Below are positions 6,917-44,100 of a DNA stretch of 64,000 nucleotides, in pieces. Numbering within the stretch: position 1 is the first letter of the stretch; each line of letters starts with the position of its first letter. A program made the position numbers and the translations under genes. The notes below the pieces were generated by a model, which saw only the letters and a list, made by a program, of their open reading frames with translations, was not told the DNA's origin and did no database searches. The stretch lies in assembly GCF_034092375.1 (NCBI RefSeq), contig NZ_CP139302.1:558001-622000 (forward strand). Direction: 5' to 3'. The DNA is from Prochlorococcus sp. MIT 1300 (lineage in GTDB: Bacteria; Cyanobacteriota; Cyanobacteriia; PCC-6307; Cyanobiaceae).

Positions 6917-7942
6917 TCAGTTATTTGCAGCAAGGCGATTAGTAACAGTCTTGAAGTCAAAGCCCATTGCCCTTAGTGCATGCCATAGGTGACCCTGAAT
7001 ATAAAAGAATCCAAGATAGTAATGGACATTAGTAAGCCAAGCTCGAGAAGTGTGTAGCCCATCAGGAAGATTAACCGTGTCAATCCAATATGGAGAGATG
7101 GCAAATTTCTGAGCTAAAGGTTCACCAAAAAATTCCGTTGGATAAACGGTGGTGTTAGTAGCACACCAGAAGGCAGCGACAATTGCCATCCAGCCTATTC
7201 CTGCAAGCGACCAAGAAAGAACGGCTTCGGCAGAAAGAAGTCCTGCACCTTTGTACTTGGTGTATTCACCAGTCTTTTGAGCAATGTGAAGTGCTCCACC
7301 ACTAATCATCAAGAATGCCAAGAAAGCATGTCCGCCCATGACATCCTCAAGATTATTTATCGAGAGAAAGTCAAATTGATGATTCCAAATTGCATTCAAA
7401 TTCAAGTTGTACTCAACTTGTCTAACTGCACCAGCAGCAGCGTCATATATCCCATGGATTCTTGCCCATTCAACAAACTGAATATTCGCGACCCCCAAGA
7501 AAATCAAATGGTGTCCAAGAATGAATGTTTGATTTTCTGGGTTGTCCCATTCCAGCTTGAACTTTCTGGCTTGCGCCACCTCTGAAGACTGCATGTCTTC
7601 ATTGAAAAGAACTGCATGAAGAAGGCCACCAGCCCCATAAACCATCGAAAAAACAAGATGGAGAATTCCAATAGTTATGACACCAGCACCAGTCCAAACA
7701 CCAGCCTCATCAAATCCAATGCCAAGAGTTGCTAAATGAGGAAGGACTATGAGTGGCTGATGCCCCATAGGAACCGATGCGTCATAACGAGCAAGTTCCC
7801 ATAACGTGAAGGATCCAGCCCAGAAAGCTATTAAACCTGTGTGAGCAGCATGTGCTGCGATGAACCTGCCTGAGCGGTTGGTAACCACAGAATTACCAGC
7901 CCACCACCCGTAGGTAACATCCGGGTTTCCATAGGTCTGCAT
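6917..7942 (-). CDS. pcb: Pcb divinyl-chlorophyll a/b-binding antenna protein (copy 4)
   Basis: The shortest copy of the array, 341 residues, with the six-helix CP43/IsiA-like fold. It retains MQTYGNP, YGWWAGNSVVTN, FILGHHLIFLGVANIQFVEWARIHGIYD, NNLEDVMGGHAFLAF, SAEAVLSWSLAGIGWMAIVAAFW and IQGHLWHALRAMGFDF. It lacks the insertion seen in copy 3 and has a short tail. The FIAAHAAHTGLI block is shared with copy 1 rather than copies 2 and 3. The upstream leader is almost the same as that of copy 2. It is the first gene of the array in transcription order, but each gene has its own terminator, so they are probably transcribed singly. Confidence 0.95.
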   Translation of the reverse strand: MQTYGNPDVTYGWWAGNSVVTNRSGRFIAAHAAHTGLIAFWAGSFTLWELARYDASVPMGHQPLIVLPHLATLGIGFDEAGVWTGAGVITIGILHLVFSMVYGAGGLLHAVLFNEDMQSSEVAQARKFKLEWDNPENQTFILGHHLIFLGVANIQFVEWARIHGIYDAAAGAVRQVEYNLNLNAIWNHQFDFLSINNLEDVMGGHAFLAFLMISGGALHIAQKTGEYTKYKGAGLLSAEAVLSWSLAGIGWMAIVAAFWCATNTTVYPTEFFGEPLAQKFAISPYWIDTVNLPDGLHTSRAWLTNVHYYLGFFYIQGHLWHALRAMGFDFKTVTNRLAANN

Positions 7943-8058
7943 AATTTAAAGAGTTCAAAGCGGTAATACGCCTCGAACACTACACTCATCTAGAGCTGGA
8001 TCGGCAAGGCGGTTCAGCATCCGTAAAGGTCTGCGGCACAAGGGCTTTGACCTTTGCT
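7943..8058 (-). promoter_or_regulatory. conserved pcb leader, copy c
   Basis: About 115 bases upstream of the start match the leader of pcb copy 2 with few differences, including the GAGCTGGATCGGCAAGGC block, GTTCAGCATCCGTAAAG and GTCTGCGGCACAAGGG. The match ends near 8058, which suggests the limit of a shared regulatory unit. Confidence 0.65.
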
Positions 8059-8146
8059 CTTTGTTTGAGGCTTGAAATCGACATTTATAGGGATTTCCAA
8101 TTCGCCTGCAGAGCAATGCCTGACTGCTTTTTGGAGAAATTAATTT

Positions 8147-8347
8147 TCAGAGACCAGCTTGTAGAAATACATAAAACCCCAGCATAAAATTGACGAAATA
8201 ACATATGACAGTGTTAAGCAGTGTGATTGGAGAGATCTCCCTCCGCATAAGTATCCTGAAACCATAAGCTGTTTTTAAAATCAAATAGTCCAGAATGGAT
8301 CGAGTGAGCAATACGATTGGCTTTTGAGCTTTAACAAGGTCAGCCAT
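8147..8347 (-). CDS. small hypothetical protein
   Basis: A 66-residue ORF starting at the ATG at 8347 (a TTG lies one codon upstream). The second half is hydrophobic (LLNTVICYFVNFMLGFYVFLQAG) and would span the membrane once. It lies head-to-head with the glycosyltransferase gene, whose start is 12 bases away, leaving little room for promoters. No family is recognised and it could be a chance ORF. Confidence 0.3.
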   Translation of the reverse strand: MADLVKAQKPIVLLTRSILDYLILKTAYGFRILMRREISPITLLNTVICYFVNFMLGFYVFLQAGL

Positions 8348-8358
8348 CAATAAGTTCC

Positions 8359-10410
8359 ATGGAGATATCAGAGCAACCGCTAATAACTAAAGCCTTGAGG
8401 GAACATTCTCTAGGCAATCTTGAAGAAGCATCCAACTTATACAAGTTAATTATTGAAGTTGAAAAACCGGACTACAGAGCATTTATTAATTATGGGGTCA
8501 TTTGCCACCAAACTGGGCTTACAAAAAAAGCAGAGGGTTTATATCTAAAATGCATTGATTTATTTCCTCTAGAATCTGATGCTTATGCAAATCTAGGTGG
8601 GTTATTAAAAGACCTTGGCAGATTAGATGAAGCCGAATCTGCATGTAAAAAAGCTATTGGAATCAACCCAAAGAATATAACTGCTCTATCTAACATGGGT
8701 AGCATTATGAAAGAGAAAGGAGATCTTAAAGGTGCATATGATTTTACAAGAGAAGCAATTAAATTAGACGAAACACAGCCAGTTCTATACGCAAATATGG
8801 CGGGAATTTTGCAATCACAATCAAAACTTATGGATGCGGAGAAAAATATTAGAAAGGCTTTAGAACTAGATGCTAATTTGAAAGATGGGCATATGAAACT
8901 AGGAATCATATCAAGAGAACAAGGAAAATTAGATGAAGCAAATAAGGCATTTAAAGAAGCAGTCTTAGGAGATCCTGAAGATCTAAACAAGTATCTACTA
9001 GCAAGTTTACAACTAATCGATATTCCAAAATCAAAAGATGAAATAAGATCCGAGAGAAGAAAGTACTACTCAAAAATAGATAAGCTTCTTAAGCTAGAAG
9101 TAAATCCTAAAAATAACAGTCTTGACATATTTACAGAGATGTTTTGGCTTGCCTATCACAATTGCGATGACGACAAGAAGATACTAGAGAGCTTAGGCCT
9201 CGTACTACAGAAAAAACTAGCCAAAGCACAATACAAGTCTATTCAGAAGAAAAGCATCAAAGGCAAAGGGCCTATTAAAATAGGAATTTGTTCTGAATTC
9301 CTTAGAAATCATACAATCGGGAAATTAAACAAAGGCTTAGTTGAAGGCTTAGTACAACAAGGCTTTGAGGTGTTTGTTATCACACCTCCAGCCACTAAGA
9401 ATGATCCAATAAGAGCGGAAATAGAAGCATTAGCAACAAAATCGCTGGCGCTTCCATGTTCACATGAGCAAGCTTCTTTAATAATTAATAATTTAAATCT
9501 AGATTTTTTATATTACCCAGATATAGGGATGAGTCCTTACACTTATAAATTAGCACTATTTAGACTGGCAAGAATACAAGTGGTTAGCTGGGGGCATCCA
9601 AGTACAACAGGATTGAATACAATTGACTATTTCATTTCCTCAAATTACCTAGACAATGATTCAGCCCAATATAATTACAGTGAAACCTTGATTAGATTTT
9701 CACGCATACCTTGCATTTACAAGGCACCCTTGAAGCCTCTAGAAATTTCCATAAAAGATTTGATTCCATTAAAAAAGCAAAAAATTCTTCTTGGCATCCC
9801 ACAATCACTATTTAAAATTCACCCCGATTACGATTTAATCTTGCTTGAAATACTAAATAGAGAAGAAGATACCTTATTAGTGCTGATAGAAGGTGCAAAT
9901 ATAAATCAAACAAATAGGCTTAAAGAACGCTGGAAAAATTTAGATTCGAAATTAATAGAAAGATCTCTATTCCTAGCCAGAATGGATCAAAATAGCTACT
10001 TACAACTTTTAAATGATGTTGATATTCTTCTTGACCCTTTTTATTTTGGTGGTGGAAATACATTTTATGAATCAATGGTTTTTGGTACTCCATGGGTAAC
10101 AATGCCGACAAATTTTCTACGAGGGCGAATAGCTTACGCATGCTATAAACAGATGGAGATAAAAAATGCTCCTATAGCAAATAACCCTAGAGAGTACATA
10201 AAACTATGTTTAGAATTAGCTAATAATCCTGCATTGAGGGCATCAATTAGGAAAGAAAGTCGAAAAGCGGCAAAAACAAAGCTTTTTGAAGACAAAGAAA
10301 TAATTAATGAGTATGTTCAATTCTTCAAGAAAGCACTTGAAGCGGAGCAACAAGGGGAAAAACTGCCAAAGGGGTGGACGCCTCAGAAGGGGAAAAGCAT
10401 CCAAATCTAA
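8359..10410 (+). CDS. TPR-repeat, OGT-like (GT41 family) glycosyltransferase
   Basis: A 683-residue protein. Residues 1 to about 215 form tetratricopeptide repeats (for example DAYANLGGLLKDLGRLDEAE and HMKLGIISREQGKLDEANKA). Residues about 300-665 resemble the catalytic lobes of O-GlcNAc transferase/SPINDLY proteins: IKIGICSEFLRNHTIG, a SWGHPSTTGLNTIDYF block, and DILLDPFYFGGGNTFYESMVFGTPWVTMP, which binds the nucleotide sugar in this family. Bacterial members glycosylate proteins or surface polymers; the substrate here is unknown. There is no signal peptide, so it is cytoplasmic. Base composition is AT-rich with many AAA/ATA codons, more so than the pcb genes, which may mark an accessory gene. 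Confidence 0.85.
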   Translation: MEISEQPLITKALREHSLGNLEEASNLYKLIIEVEKPDYRAFINYGVICHQTGLTKKAEGLYLKCIDLFPLESDAYANLGGLLKDLGRLDEAESACKKAIGINPKNITALSNMGSIMKEKGDLKGAYDFTREAIKLDETQPVLYANMAGILQSQSKLMDAEKNIRKALELDANLKDGHMKLGIISREQGKLDEANKAFKEAVLGDPEDLNKYLLASLQLIDIPKSKDEIRSERRKYYSKIDKLLKLEVNPKNNSLDIFTEMFWLAYHNCDDDKKILESLGLVLQKKLAKAQYKSIQKKSIKGKGPIKIGICSEFLRNHTIGKLNKGLVEGLVQQGFEVFVITPPATKNDPIRAEIEALATKSLALPCSHEQASLIINNLNLDFLYYPDIGMSPYTYKLALFRLARIQVVSWGHPSTTGLNTIDYFISSNYLDNDSAQYNYSETLIRFSRIPCIYKAPLKPLEISIKDLIPLKKQKILLGIPQSLFKIHPDYDLILLEILNREEDTLLVLIEGANINQTNRLKERWKNLDSKLIERSLFLARMDQNSYLQLLNDVDILLDPFYFGGGNTFYESMVFGTPWVTMPTNFLRGRIAYACYKQMEIKNAPIANNPREYIKLCLELANNPALRASIRKESRKAAKTKLFEDKEIINEYVQFFKKALEAEQQGEKLPKGWTPQKGKSIQI

Positions 10411-40620: not shown

Positions 40621-42137
40621 GATCCTCTTCAGTCCAAAAACCAATCATGGTCTTTGGGACCTCAAGCGGTGCAGGTAAATCTCTTACGACCATTGCTATT
40701 TGCCGCATGCTTCTCAACCTAGGCGATACCCCTTTGCCCTTTAAAGGCCAAAACATGAGTAACAACGCCTGGGTAGATGAAGATGGCGGAGAAATGGCAT
40801 ATTCACAAGCCGTTCAGGCATGGGCAGCAGGCCAAACTCCAATATGCGCTATGAACCCTGTACTCCTAAAGCCCAAAGGTAATTGCACGAGTGAAGTGAT
40901 CCACCTTGGCGAAAGCGTGGGGATTGCAAAAGCCGAAACCTACTACGATGAATGGTTCCGTCCTGGGTGGCTCGCAATACGCAAGGGACTAACCAAACTA
41001 AAAAGCACTGAACAAACTGGAAGACTTGTAATAGAAGGCGCAGGAAGTCCAGTAGAAATTAATTTGCAATATAGAGACCTAACAAACTTAAGAATCGCCC
41101 AATTCCTTAGAGCGAATTGTCTCCTGGTAGCAGATATAGAGAGAGGTGGTGTTTTTGCTCAAATAGTTGGGACTCTTTCTTTATTAAGACCAATTGAGAA
41201 ATCCCTGATAAAAGGAATATTAATCAATCGTTTTAGAGGCCGCAAAGAACTTTTTGAAGAGGGCAAGAAATGGCTAGAAAATCAAACTGGAATTCCAGTT
41301 ATAGGTGTAATGCCATGGCTAAATGATTTTTTCCCGCCAGAAGACTCTCTCGATTTAATAGAAATTGGGCGTAGAAAAAGCAGCTCCGAAATAGAAATTG
41401 CAGTAATTAAACTACCTTCAATAAGCAACTTTTCAGATTTAGATCCATTAAAGAATGAGCCTAGCGTTGATCTTCACTTGATCGAACCAGGATCAATTTT
41501 AGGCAACCCTGATGCGCTGATAATACCTGGAAGCAAACAAACAATAAAAGATCTTCAAGTGCTTCATGAAAGCGGATTAGCAAATCAAATAAAATCTTTC
41601 GCCAATAACGGAGGAATTGTTCTAGGGATTTGCGGAGGGATGCAAATGTTAGGCCACGAACTTCATGACCCATTAAAGTTAGAAAATTCACCTAAAGGAG
41701 TAGAGTCAGGAAAACATATTGGCCTTGAACTGCTCCCAATCAAAACAGTTTTTGAAAAGAATAAGTCACTCCAACAAAGACATATTAGAGCTTCCTGGCC
41801 AGCCTGTACATTAGTCAAAGGCTTTGAACTTCACCATGGGGAAAGTCGTTTAATTAGCGAAATAAATCATGGGACTGATACAATAACAGAAGATCCATCA
41901 CTAGGATGGGTTAAAACAAGTAAGTACTATTCATCAATAGCAGGAACATATCTCCATGGGATTCTAGATAATGGAACATGGAGAAGGCTCTGGCTTAACC
42001 AAATCAGAAAGCAAAAGGGAATAGAAGAGCTCCCACACAAAACCAAGGATCATTCAGAACAAAGAGATGGCTTAATAAATAAGTTGGCTGATATCTTTGC
42101 AGAAGAAGTTAATATCGAACCTCTACTAGAAAAATGA
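40617..42137 (+). CDS. cobQ: cobyric acid synthase
   Basis: A 506-residue enzyme that amidates adenosyl-cobyrinate a,c-diamide at four side chains, using glutamine and ATP, in cobalamin (or pseudocobalamin) synthesis. The N-terminal P-loop GTSSGAGKS and [12 protein letters not shown] blocks belong to the dethiobiotin-synthetase-like domain. The C-terminal class I glutaminase has the nucleophile in [10 protein letters not shown] and the catalytic histidine in GTYLHGILD. An upstream TTG at 40605 adds four residues; ATG at 40617 is preferred because of the ATGA overlap. Coupled to both neighbours. Confidence 0.97.
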
Positions 42138-42379
42138 TTGAGACTCAAATTTGTATTGAGTGGCCAAATGGAGAGAAGTCCTATGTTTACCCAGGCACAA
42201 GTTGGCTTGCAGTCGCAAAGTCCGTTGGCGTTGAAATCCCTACTGGATGCTTGAGTGGTAGTTGTGGTGCATGCGAAATAGAAGTAAATGGAAAAGTTGT
42301 TAGGGCATGTATTAATAACGTTGAGAATACGAAGTCAGGCAAAATCAAAGTCGACTTTGCTGAAGATCCATACTGGTAA
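42134..42379 (+). CDS. small [2Fe-2S] ferredoxin
   Basis: An 81-residue ferredoxin. Cysteines read CLSGSCGAC (39, 44, 47), with the fourth at residue 59 (VRACI). The last gap is only 11 residues, unlike the roughly 29 in photosynthetic ferredoxins and closer to the [2Fe-2S] domain of xanthine-oxidase-type enzymes. It starts within the stop of cobQ (ATGA), implying joint translation. An electron-transfer role linked to cobalt reduction during cobalamin synthesis is a hypothesis from position only. Confidence 0.85.
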
Positions 42380-42441: not shown

Positions 42442-42891
42442 TTATACGCCTCCCCGAACATAGGAACTAATTGGCAGGAATAGGATAACTGAAGAAAGCA
42501 AACCAGCTAAAATAAAGAATTTCACATAACCATTTTTATACTGCATCATCTTATGCAAAAAGATCATAGATACAAATGTCAACGTGGACAAGAAAGATAA
42601 AACTTTTGCTGAAAGAAGGTCAATAGAGAGATTTAGATAGTTATTCTGACCAAAAATAGTTTGTCCCCAAGGGAAAAGGAATTCTCTAATGGCTTCTTCA
42701 GAAAGTTCTTGTGAAAGAAGCAAGTAGCTTATCGATGCTGAAGTCCCTATACAGGTTAATATGATAAAAGAAACAGGCTTACTCAGCCTAGACATCGTTC
42801 TACTAAAACTAATTAGTAGAATTCCAAGTAAAGAAGCTCCAACAAAAGGGAATACTGGAATGATCCAGGCAATTTCAATAGGTGATGGCAT
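42442..42891 (-). CDS. orphan NdhF-like N-terminal domain protein
   Basis: A 149-residue membrane protein beginning MPSPIEIAWIIPVFPFVGASLLG at 42891 (the frame extends to 42930). The first 45 residues closely resemble the start of NdhF, the proton-pumping subunit of NDH-1, including SFSRTMSRLSKPVSF. Four hydrophobic helices follow, with YKNGYVKFFILAGLLSSVILFL echoing the NdhF region near residue 115-140. It then stops where NdhF would go on for more than 450 residues. Either a degraded duplicate or a functional short paralogue. No internal stops. The match is by memory of NdhF, not by alignment. Confidence 0.7.
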   Translation of the reverse strand: MPSPIEIAWIIPVFPFVGASLLGILLISFSRTMSRLSKPVSFIILTCIGTSASISYLLLSQELSEEAIREFLFPWGQTIFGQNNYLNLSIDLLSAKVLSFLSTLTFVSMIFLHKMMQYKNGYVKFFILAGLLSSVILFLPISSYVRGGV

Positions 42892-42988
42892 ATGCGTTGC
42901 AATTTGGGACTGACTCTGAAGCCTAAGCAAGGCTATCTGTAGGCAAAAAGCTAAAAGCTCCTAAGATGACTTTAGCAATTCAAGAGCA

Positions 42989-43156
42989 ATGCATAATTAC
43001 CTATGGTTACTCGGCATAGTTTTTGCCATTTCACTAATAGGCTTCAGATGGAACCAAATTGAGGTTCAACATACTAGAAGCTCAAGCCGAATGATCAAAA
43101 AATCTCGCAAACGTCAAAACAAAATTAATATGAAAGCAAAAAGACTTAACAGTTAA
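42989..43156 (+). CDS. small basic single-pass membrane protein
   Basis: A 55-residue ORF: MHNYLWLLGIVFAISLIGF forms a membrane anchor, followed by a strongly basic tail (RMIKKSRKRQNKINMKAKRL). It lies in the gap between two minus-strand genes, on the plus strand. The topology is reasonable for a real protein, but no family is known to me. Chance occurrence cannot be excluded. Confidence 0.45.
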   Translation: MHNYLWLLGIVFAISLIGFRWNQIEVQHTRSSSRMIKKSRKRQNKINMKAKRLNS

Positions 43157-43178: not shown

Positions 43179-43592
43179 TTAAAGGAAAATCTTTGCTTTA
43201 GTTTCCCCAGAAGAGCTTTCAGCAATAGGTCCTTGACTCTCTTCTAACTCTTCATCTTCTAAAGATGGATAGCTTAAGAGGGATTTTTCACTAGTGAGAG
43301 GCTCAATAACGCAAGCCCTTAGTTCTTTATGGGTTATAGATGCTGGGATATCAAATTCATTTGAAAGGTCATTTAAGAATGTCGGCAAACTACTCTCAAG
43401 ACCTTTTCTAGTTAAAAAAGGACCAAACATGTAAGTAACTTTAGGAGTATTAGTTTCAACCTTTGACCACCAAGCTAATCCCAAGCTATTCACCAGGTCA
43501 ATCAAAGCCTCCCAAGCGAAATATGAGAACAGCAGGAGTAAGTCTATAAAGCCAAACGCGGCTGCCAAATAATGCAGTTCAACATTTCCCAT
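43179..43592 (-). CDS. DUF1816-like membrane-anchored protein
   Basis: About 137 residues from the ATG at 43592 (a GTG at 43601 adds three). The N-terminal part LAAAFGFIDLLLLFSYFAWEALI is a hydrophobic helix, then comes LAWWSKVETNTPKVTYMFGPFLTRKGLESSLPTFLNDLSNEF, which resembles the DUF1816 domain of cyanobacteria (WW-x-I/V-E-T-x-x-P-x-x-T-Y-x-FGPF). The C-terminus is acidic and Ser/Glu-rich. Function unknown; a few family members relate to light-harvesting, but no claim is made here. Confidence 0.7.
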   Translation of the reverse strand: MGNVELHYLAAAFGFIDLLLLFSYFAWEALIDLVNSLGLAWWSKVETNTPKVTYMFGPFLTRKGLESSLPTFLNDLSNEFDIPASITHKELRACVIEPLTSEKSLLSYPSLEDEELEESQGPIAESSSGETKAKIFL

Positions 43593-43803
43593 AAAAACCA
43601 CCTATGATGACTCGAAATAGGCAATAGCCTACAGACGATAAGAATATTGGACTGACTTCAAGTGAGTGGAATGATTGTGGTAATCCTGACTAAAATAAAC
43701 TTGAATCTCTCACAAAGCGAATTGTCTACTTGGGCTAAAAGCTAAGCTCTACCTAGGATTTTTACTATTTTGTAAGACCTAACAAATTCTTACCAACACA
43801 AGA

Positions 43804-44100
43804 ATGAATCAAGAACGTGAACTGCCAGTATCCAGCTCAAATCCAAATGAGAATGATCTAAAAAACCTTGAGTCGCAAGTAAACAAAGAAAATATCTCCA
43901 ATGAACAATCAACTCCAGATCAACACAATCCAAAATGGATTAACAATGAAGGTTTAGAGGTTGAAGAGGTATTTGGGTTTAATAAAAATGCCGAACTAGT
44001 CAACGGGAGAGTTGCGATGGTCGGTTTCTTAATGCTAGTTATTACAGAATTATATTTTTCAGGTGTTCCAGTGACAAAAAGTATTTTTGGTATTGGCTAA
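43804..44100 (+). CDS. hli: high-light-inducible (Hli) chlorophyll-binding protein with long N-terminus
   Basis: A 98-residue one-helix LHC-like protein. The chlorophyll-binding helix ELVNGRVAMVGFLMLVITELYFSG (about residues 64-87) carries the conserved E-x-x-N-G-R-x-A-M-x-G-F motif. Hli proteins protect chlorophyll and take part in PSII assembly, partly with Ycf39, also encoded in this window. Unusual here is a polar N-terminal extension of about 60 residues rich in Asn, Glu and Ser, whereas most Hli proteins are 40-70 residues in total. It lies alone between hypothetical genes. Confidence 0.93.
   Translation: MNQERELPVSSSNPNENDLKNLESQVNKENISNEQSTPDQHNPKWINNEGLEVEEVFGFNKNAELVNGRVAMVGFLMLVITELYFSGVPVTKSIFGIG

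Follow-up and report, generated by a model that had tools for sequence, protein, structure and literature searches.

A short NdhF paralog maintained in Prochlorococcus, a candidate accessory protein of NDH-1

A gene on the reverse strand at positions 42442-42891 of a 64,000-nucleotide stretch of the Prochlorococcus sp. MIT 1300 genome (the window, to which all coordinates refer) encodes a 149-residue paralog of NdhF. The gene is under purifying selection, with a constraint looser than that on NdhF, and its orthologues are wide in Prochlorococcus, where they come in two sizes, ∼150 aa (four helices) and ∼300 aa. From its sequence and those of its relatives we read it as what remains of a duplicated ndhF, a protein that is maintained without pumping and whose most likely role is that of a small accessory subunit in the NDH-1 membrane arm, a reading that we hold with about as much belief as doubt. 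The parts needed for pumping are lost, yet the gene has been kept by selection, and it is therefore probably a helper protein rather than debris.

Similarity to the N-terminal part of NdhF

The frame is intact and without frameshift (149 codons and a stop), as the earlier note on this DNA had stated. Its ATG start (42891-42889) matches the starts of the aligned orthologues; the longest possible frame begins with a TTG at 42930 and would encode 162 aa. The genome (1,855,146 bases in one contig) carries one copy of full-length NdhF, located outside the window, and the short paralog aligns with it over residues 1-142 at 39% identity (E-value 9.1e-27), a likeness far beyond chance expectation. The likeness is greatest at the N-terminus, yet it spans nearly the whole protein. 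The earlier note had described 45 residues almost the same as NdhF, followed by four helices; in fact 26 of these 45 residues are identical, and the four long helices are the total for the protein, homologous to residues 1-142. Its remark that the stop falls where NdhF continues holds, the frame ending upstream of the NdhF segment that contains the channel glutamate (residue 152 of the NdhF of the same genome).

An AlphaFold2 model of the protein has four long helices (the first being residues 10-28, encoded at 42808-42864 on the reverse strand) and a hairpin, with a mean pLDDT of 86.7 and a pTM of 0.78; the input alignment had 32 rows, of which six are NdhF N-termini that may pull the model. 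The top match among solved structures is NdhF of the cyanobacterial NDH-1L complex (6l7p_F; E-value 2.2e-07, TM-score 0.85 by query). The model of a relative from the high-light clade, whose identity to the three NdhF sequences in its own alignment is 20-24%, again has four long helices (mean pLDDT 81.1, with low confidence for the helix 2-3 stretch). The short paralog has no match in Pfam at an E-value of at most 0.01, including PF00662 (Proton_antipo_N), and NdhF is the sole PF00662 match in its genome; 11 out of the 32 rows of the short-form alignment do match PF00662, but this alignment includes the six NdhF and two half-form N-termini (half forms being the proteins of ∼300 aa). The best NCBIfam match, at 86.1 of 963 bits, is far under the cut-off.

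Distribution and origin

Because NdhF also matches a short-form query, paralog and NdhF were told apart by frame length and profile searches. A single-sequence scan of the named-genome contigs gave no match; a profile scan found 42 loci, 37 from Prochlorococcus and five from other bacteria (L099 and L101-L104, encoding NuoL-type proteins), a set biased towards the motif as the scan patterns fall in the conserved N-terminal region. Measured from stop to stop, 35 of the 37 Prochlorococcus frames have 144-182 codons; the remaining two are L069 (302 codons) and L100 (120 codons), the latter a copy broken by an early stop.

Among 49 selected genomes the paralog was found in 31, as a frame of 146-182 codons in 25 and of 296-314 codons in six (G014, G026, G028, G029, G043 and G070). 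Two genomes (G401 and G402) gave fragmentary matches, and 16 were without the paralog, 12 of which are just 53-85% complete. G004, G025, G088 and G266, which are 95-100% complete and lack the paralog, have as second match a protein of 621-645 codons that fits the short-form profile far worse (E-values 1.1e-7 to 2.5e-5); from their length and score, these proteins are probably NdhF3/NdhF4. The clade labels used here (HL, LLI and LLIV) are presumed, as are the identities of G070 (MIT9313), G151 (MED4) and G109 (NATL2A). In the HL clade the paralog occurs in 46 out of 49 genomes that are at least 97% complete (the exceptions being G370, G281 and G178). In LLI, all 17 genomes that are at least 90% complete have a match, and so do 36 of the 41 genomes overall, most of them incomplete (G345 matches in part); one LLI copy (G254) is broken, with an internal stop and a missing start. 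No intact paralog of 150 aa or 300 aa is among the matches listed for the full-NdhF search of 28 control genomes, which we take to be of other genera, partly from their paralog content; one of them (G018) has a two-piece fragment with 33-34% identity. We also considered a phage-borne gene and rejected it: 26 stretches fit the pattern in a scan of viral contigs but none was confirmed, and PHROGs gave no match.

A tree of 71 N-terminal sequences contains a branch (support 100/99) that splits NdhF and four non-cyanobacterial NuoL rows from all short and half forms, and the LLIV half form is the closest to NdhF; only 27 out of 68 inner branches of this tree are well supported, its bootstrap is unsettled, it includes some long rows and its outgroup does not fall at the base. 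The 300-aa forms of G043 (L069/L249) and G028 (L250) have the same neighbours as the window's short form, namely genes for ferredoxin, presumed cobQ and maf, so that 300-aa and 150-aa forms occur at one locus; no neighbours of these three types were matched near the LLIV, G014 and G026 half forms. Tree and loci fit a single duplication of ndhF, which would have arisen in or before the Prochlorococcus ancestor, and after which the duplicate would have retained just the N-terminal part of NdhF, losing the C-terminal half first and probably a further quarter later, to leave ∼300 aa in some lineages and ∼150 aa (four helices) in most of those examined.

Loss of the proton channel residues

The short form stops upstream of three NdhF features: the glutamate E152 (in the motif WELVG), which we take to be equivalent to NuoL E144, the histidine of SALIHA and the lysine of KSAQFPL. 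With 149 aa and four long helices it is without the complete helix set of NdhF/NuoL, and thus presumably without the two half-channels and the lateral helix. The half forms extend far enough to be compared at E152, and all seven that were examined have L, F or V instead. The SALIHA histidine is retained in only three of these seven (those of LLIV); the KSAQFPL lysine, as read from a printed alignment, is still present in the LLIV half forms, which counts against a loss of pumping. The earlier note had raised the possibility of a separate proton-channel module, and the paralog does derive from an antiporter-like subunit. But the modelled protein has four helices only, and the channel glutamate lies beyond the end of the short form and is gone from the half forms, so that a proton channel is very unlikely.

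Purifying selection

We calculated pairwise dN/dS by the Nei-Gojobori method. For the short form, over pairs with dS between 0.05 and 1.5, the median is 0.22 in HL (30 genomes, 390 out of 435 pairs) and 0.20 in LLI (30 genomes, 433 out of 435 pairs). In matched genomes, the short form has a dN/dS of 0.20 in HL (n = 20) and 0.22 in LLI (n = 10), against 0.04 and 0.03, respectively, for the first 144 codons of NdhF; the values of the short form are thus five to seven times those of NdhF. When the reading frame of the matched-genome alignments was shifted by one or two bases, dN/dS rose to 0.93-1.95. The three LLIV half forms have values of 0.22-0.28 over 301 codons. The 30 HL short forms all begin with a GTG at one position and, with the start chosen by script, 29 of them are 144 aa long and one is 142 aa.

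The view that the paralog is a functionless, decaying fragment of ndhF can draw on the stepwise shortening, the fast evolution and the two broken copies (L100 and G254), but we consider it most improbable, given dN/dS values of ∼0.2 where the frame-shifted controls are near or above one, the uniform start and length in HL, and the wide presence of the gene. A pseudogene decaying in this strain only is rejected on the distribution together with dN/dS. The earlier note had left the choice between a gene maintained by selection and a duplicate in decay, and had taken dN/dS near one, or presence only in this strain, as signs of the latter; values of about 0.2 in two clades and a wide presence in Prochlorococcus decide for the former.

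The first loop in the paralog and in NdhF

Conservation within the family peaks in the first loop (residues 28-40, encoded at 42772-42810 on the reverse strand; SFSRTMSRLSKPV in this protein). In both clades pN/pS is lowest in codons 23-42, which run from the last part of helix 1 through the first loop (0.15 and 0.12). The short forms share a first-loop motif, T-x-x-R-L-x-K-P: T32, R35, L36, K38 and P39 are present in 60 out of 60 short forms (the 30 best matches of each of two profile searches), and among 91 distinct short sequences, some of which were found via patterns inside the first-loop region itself, T32, R35, L36 and P39 are in all 91 and K38 in 90. A second basic loop (residues 113-124; 42520-42555 on the reverse strand) has the consensus RKxGYV at its end, with G120 and Y121 in 88 of the 91 sequences. 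The mean net charge is +3.0 for the first loop and +3.8 for the second basic loop, and -1.8 for the loop between them; by the positive-inside rule both basic loops would therefore face the cytosol.

In full-length NdhF, the loop residues R31, T32, R35, L36 and P39 are kept in all 28 control genomes and in LLIV, but in none of 20 HL and none of 10 LLI genomes, and in six out of 15 other Prochlorococcus. For this comparison genomes were picked regardless of score, with one row per genome. Of 66 sites that are invariant in the controls, HL NdhF has lost six out of six in the loop and three out of 60 elsewhere (p = 9e-7), and LLI NdhF three out of six in the loop and one out of 60 elsewhere (p = 0.0017); with a threshold of 92% the p values are 1.7e-5 (HL) and 0.0037 (LLI). 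All of these p values ignore shared ancestry, each clade being little more than one event. The sites lost in NdhF are weakly enriched in sites kept by the short form in HL (five out of 14 versus four out of 52, p = 0.017); the LLI counts are two out of 14 versus two out of 52 (p = 0.195). An earlier NdhF sample had given a weaker result (HL, seven out of 12 versus 14 out of 91, p = 0.0023; LLI, p = 0.12; other Prochlorococcus, p = 0.125), and was biased: its loci were the best matches to the short form, with some genomes counted repeatedly, so that its rows (52 'Syn' and 18 'other') outnumber the genomes behind them. HL NdhF has drifted in helix 2 as well (identity of 0.45 to the control consensus). 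In the genome of the window the first loop is kept both in NdhF and in the short paralog, and therefore no hand-over is visible there.

Taken with the conservation of the loop in the short form, its replacement in NdhF suggests that part of a surface role of NdhF may have moved to a separate short protein. The role of the loop would have been handed over from NdhF to the paralog, the basic face of whose two loops might bind the partner originally served by the same loop of NdhF. The replacement of the first loop in HL and LLI NdhF (loci L199-L228), nearly fixed in each clade, merits a study of its own.

A protein in which the N-terminal helices and the first loop survive while all pumping parts are gone could also be a transient factor for assembly or quality control of NDH-1, one that mimics the N-terminus of NdhF and holds its partner until NdhF arrives. 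Evolution faster than that of NdhF would fit such a non-stoichiometric factor, and sequence alone cannot separate it from a stable subunit; an assembly factor, which the earlier note had also suggested, is the nearest competitor of our preferred reading, although we regard it as rather unlikely.

Genomic context

The short paralog of the window sits between a gene for a 2Fe-2S ferredoxin-like protein (42134-42379, forward strand; Pfam Fer2), which is also beside it in some relatives, and a gene for an Hli/chlorophyll-binding-like protein (43804-44100, forward strand; PF00504). Out of the 37 named loci, some of which are truncated by contig ends, 34 have the Hli-like neighbour (all except L064, L071 and L095) and five the ferredoxin-like neighbour (L063, L065, L068, L069 and L088). 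No other ndh gene was noticed beside the paralog in an unsystematic look at the loci whose frames were read, which counts against a role in NDH-1. Three features of the surroundings may be recorded here. The start of the ferredoxin-like gene overlaps the stop of the presumed cobQ gene by four bases. A divergent ORF of 55 aa (42989-43156, forward strand) encodes a single hydrophobic segment and a strongly basic tail; relatives of it adjoin the paralog in L065, L072, L239 and L252, and similar ORFs are found in L240 and L241. A gene for a DUF1816 protein (43179-43601, reverse strand) lies beside the locus and has a relative at one of the 37 named loci (L063).

An alternative oxidase gene (PTOX-type, PF01786) is present at all 30 HL loci that were fetched around the paralog (L139-L168), and in L243 the two genes lie tail to tail (7448-7882, forward strand, and 7879-8388, reverse strand) with an overlap of four bases. 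The oxidase at the HL loci, together with the frequent Hli-like neighbour, speaks for the view that the paralog has left NDH-1 for an unrelated membrane role, e.g. with photoprotective Hli proteins or in plastoquinol oxidation. The oxidase, however, was found in only four out of 12 genomes tested and is absent from the genome of the window, which makes the link clade-specific and led us to reject the oxidase as the partner. The best-kept residues of the paralog, moreover, are those of NdhF itself, and we consider an unrelated role rather improbable.

Discussion

An accessory subunit of the NDH-1 membrane arm, our preferred reading, would have to associate physically with the complex. The paralog is homologous to residues 1-142 of NdhF1/NuoL/ND5 (chain 5 of complex I) and shares their first four helices, but it is without the remaining helices and the channel glutamate. 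Like NdhF3 and NdhF4 of the CO2-uptake forms of NDH-1 it is an NdhF paralog; unlike the NdhF3/NdhF4-type matches described above, it is truncated. In the role proposed for it, a small membrane protein that helps to hold the distal arm, it would resemble NdhP and NdhQ of NDH-1L, which, in passages of two papers, are in contact with NdhD and NdhF along with lipids and carotenoids (PMC6992706, PMC7021789); small membrane proteins at that place therefore matter. NdhP and NdhQ have one predicted helix each according to a passage of the second paper (PMC7021789), whereas the paralog has four and comes from a duplication of ndhF.

No description of the short paralog was found in the full-text literature that was searched, subscription papers excepted, and its novelty is claimed within that range. 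For MED4, a passage of one paper reports two ndhD paralogs and names no second ndhF (PMC2663038); the internal transcription starts of MED4 ndhF (PMM0149), mentioned in a passage of another (PMC5607370), are a matter separate from the paralog.

A bolder proposal, which is possible but which we put forward as doubtful, is that NdhF has been split in trans: a four-helix, non-pumping protein would have taken on the surface through which the first cytosolic loop interacts and become a new, lineage-specific subunit of NDH-1, NdhF of the high-light and LLI clades would itself have lost this surface, and the 300-aa and 150-aa forms would record the steps from pump subunit to accessory subunit. For NdhL, NdhQ and similar small subunits a de novo origin has been proposed (in a passage of PMC12038448). 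If our proposal is true, the staged truncation of a pump subunit would represent another route by which subunits are born, one that can be traced, in a photosynthetic organism that is among the most abundant. The paralog is an example of a gene that is widely kept and yet missed by Pfam and, again if the proposal is true, it would bear on cyclic electron flow and respiration in a minimal cell.
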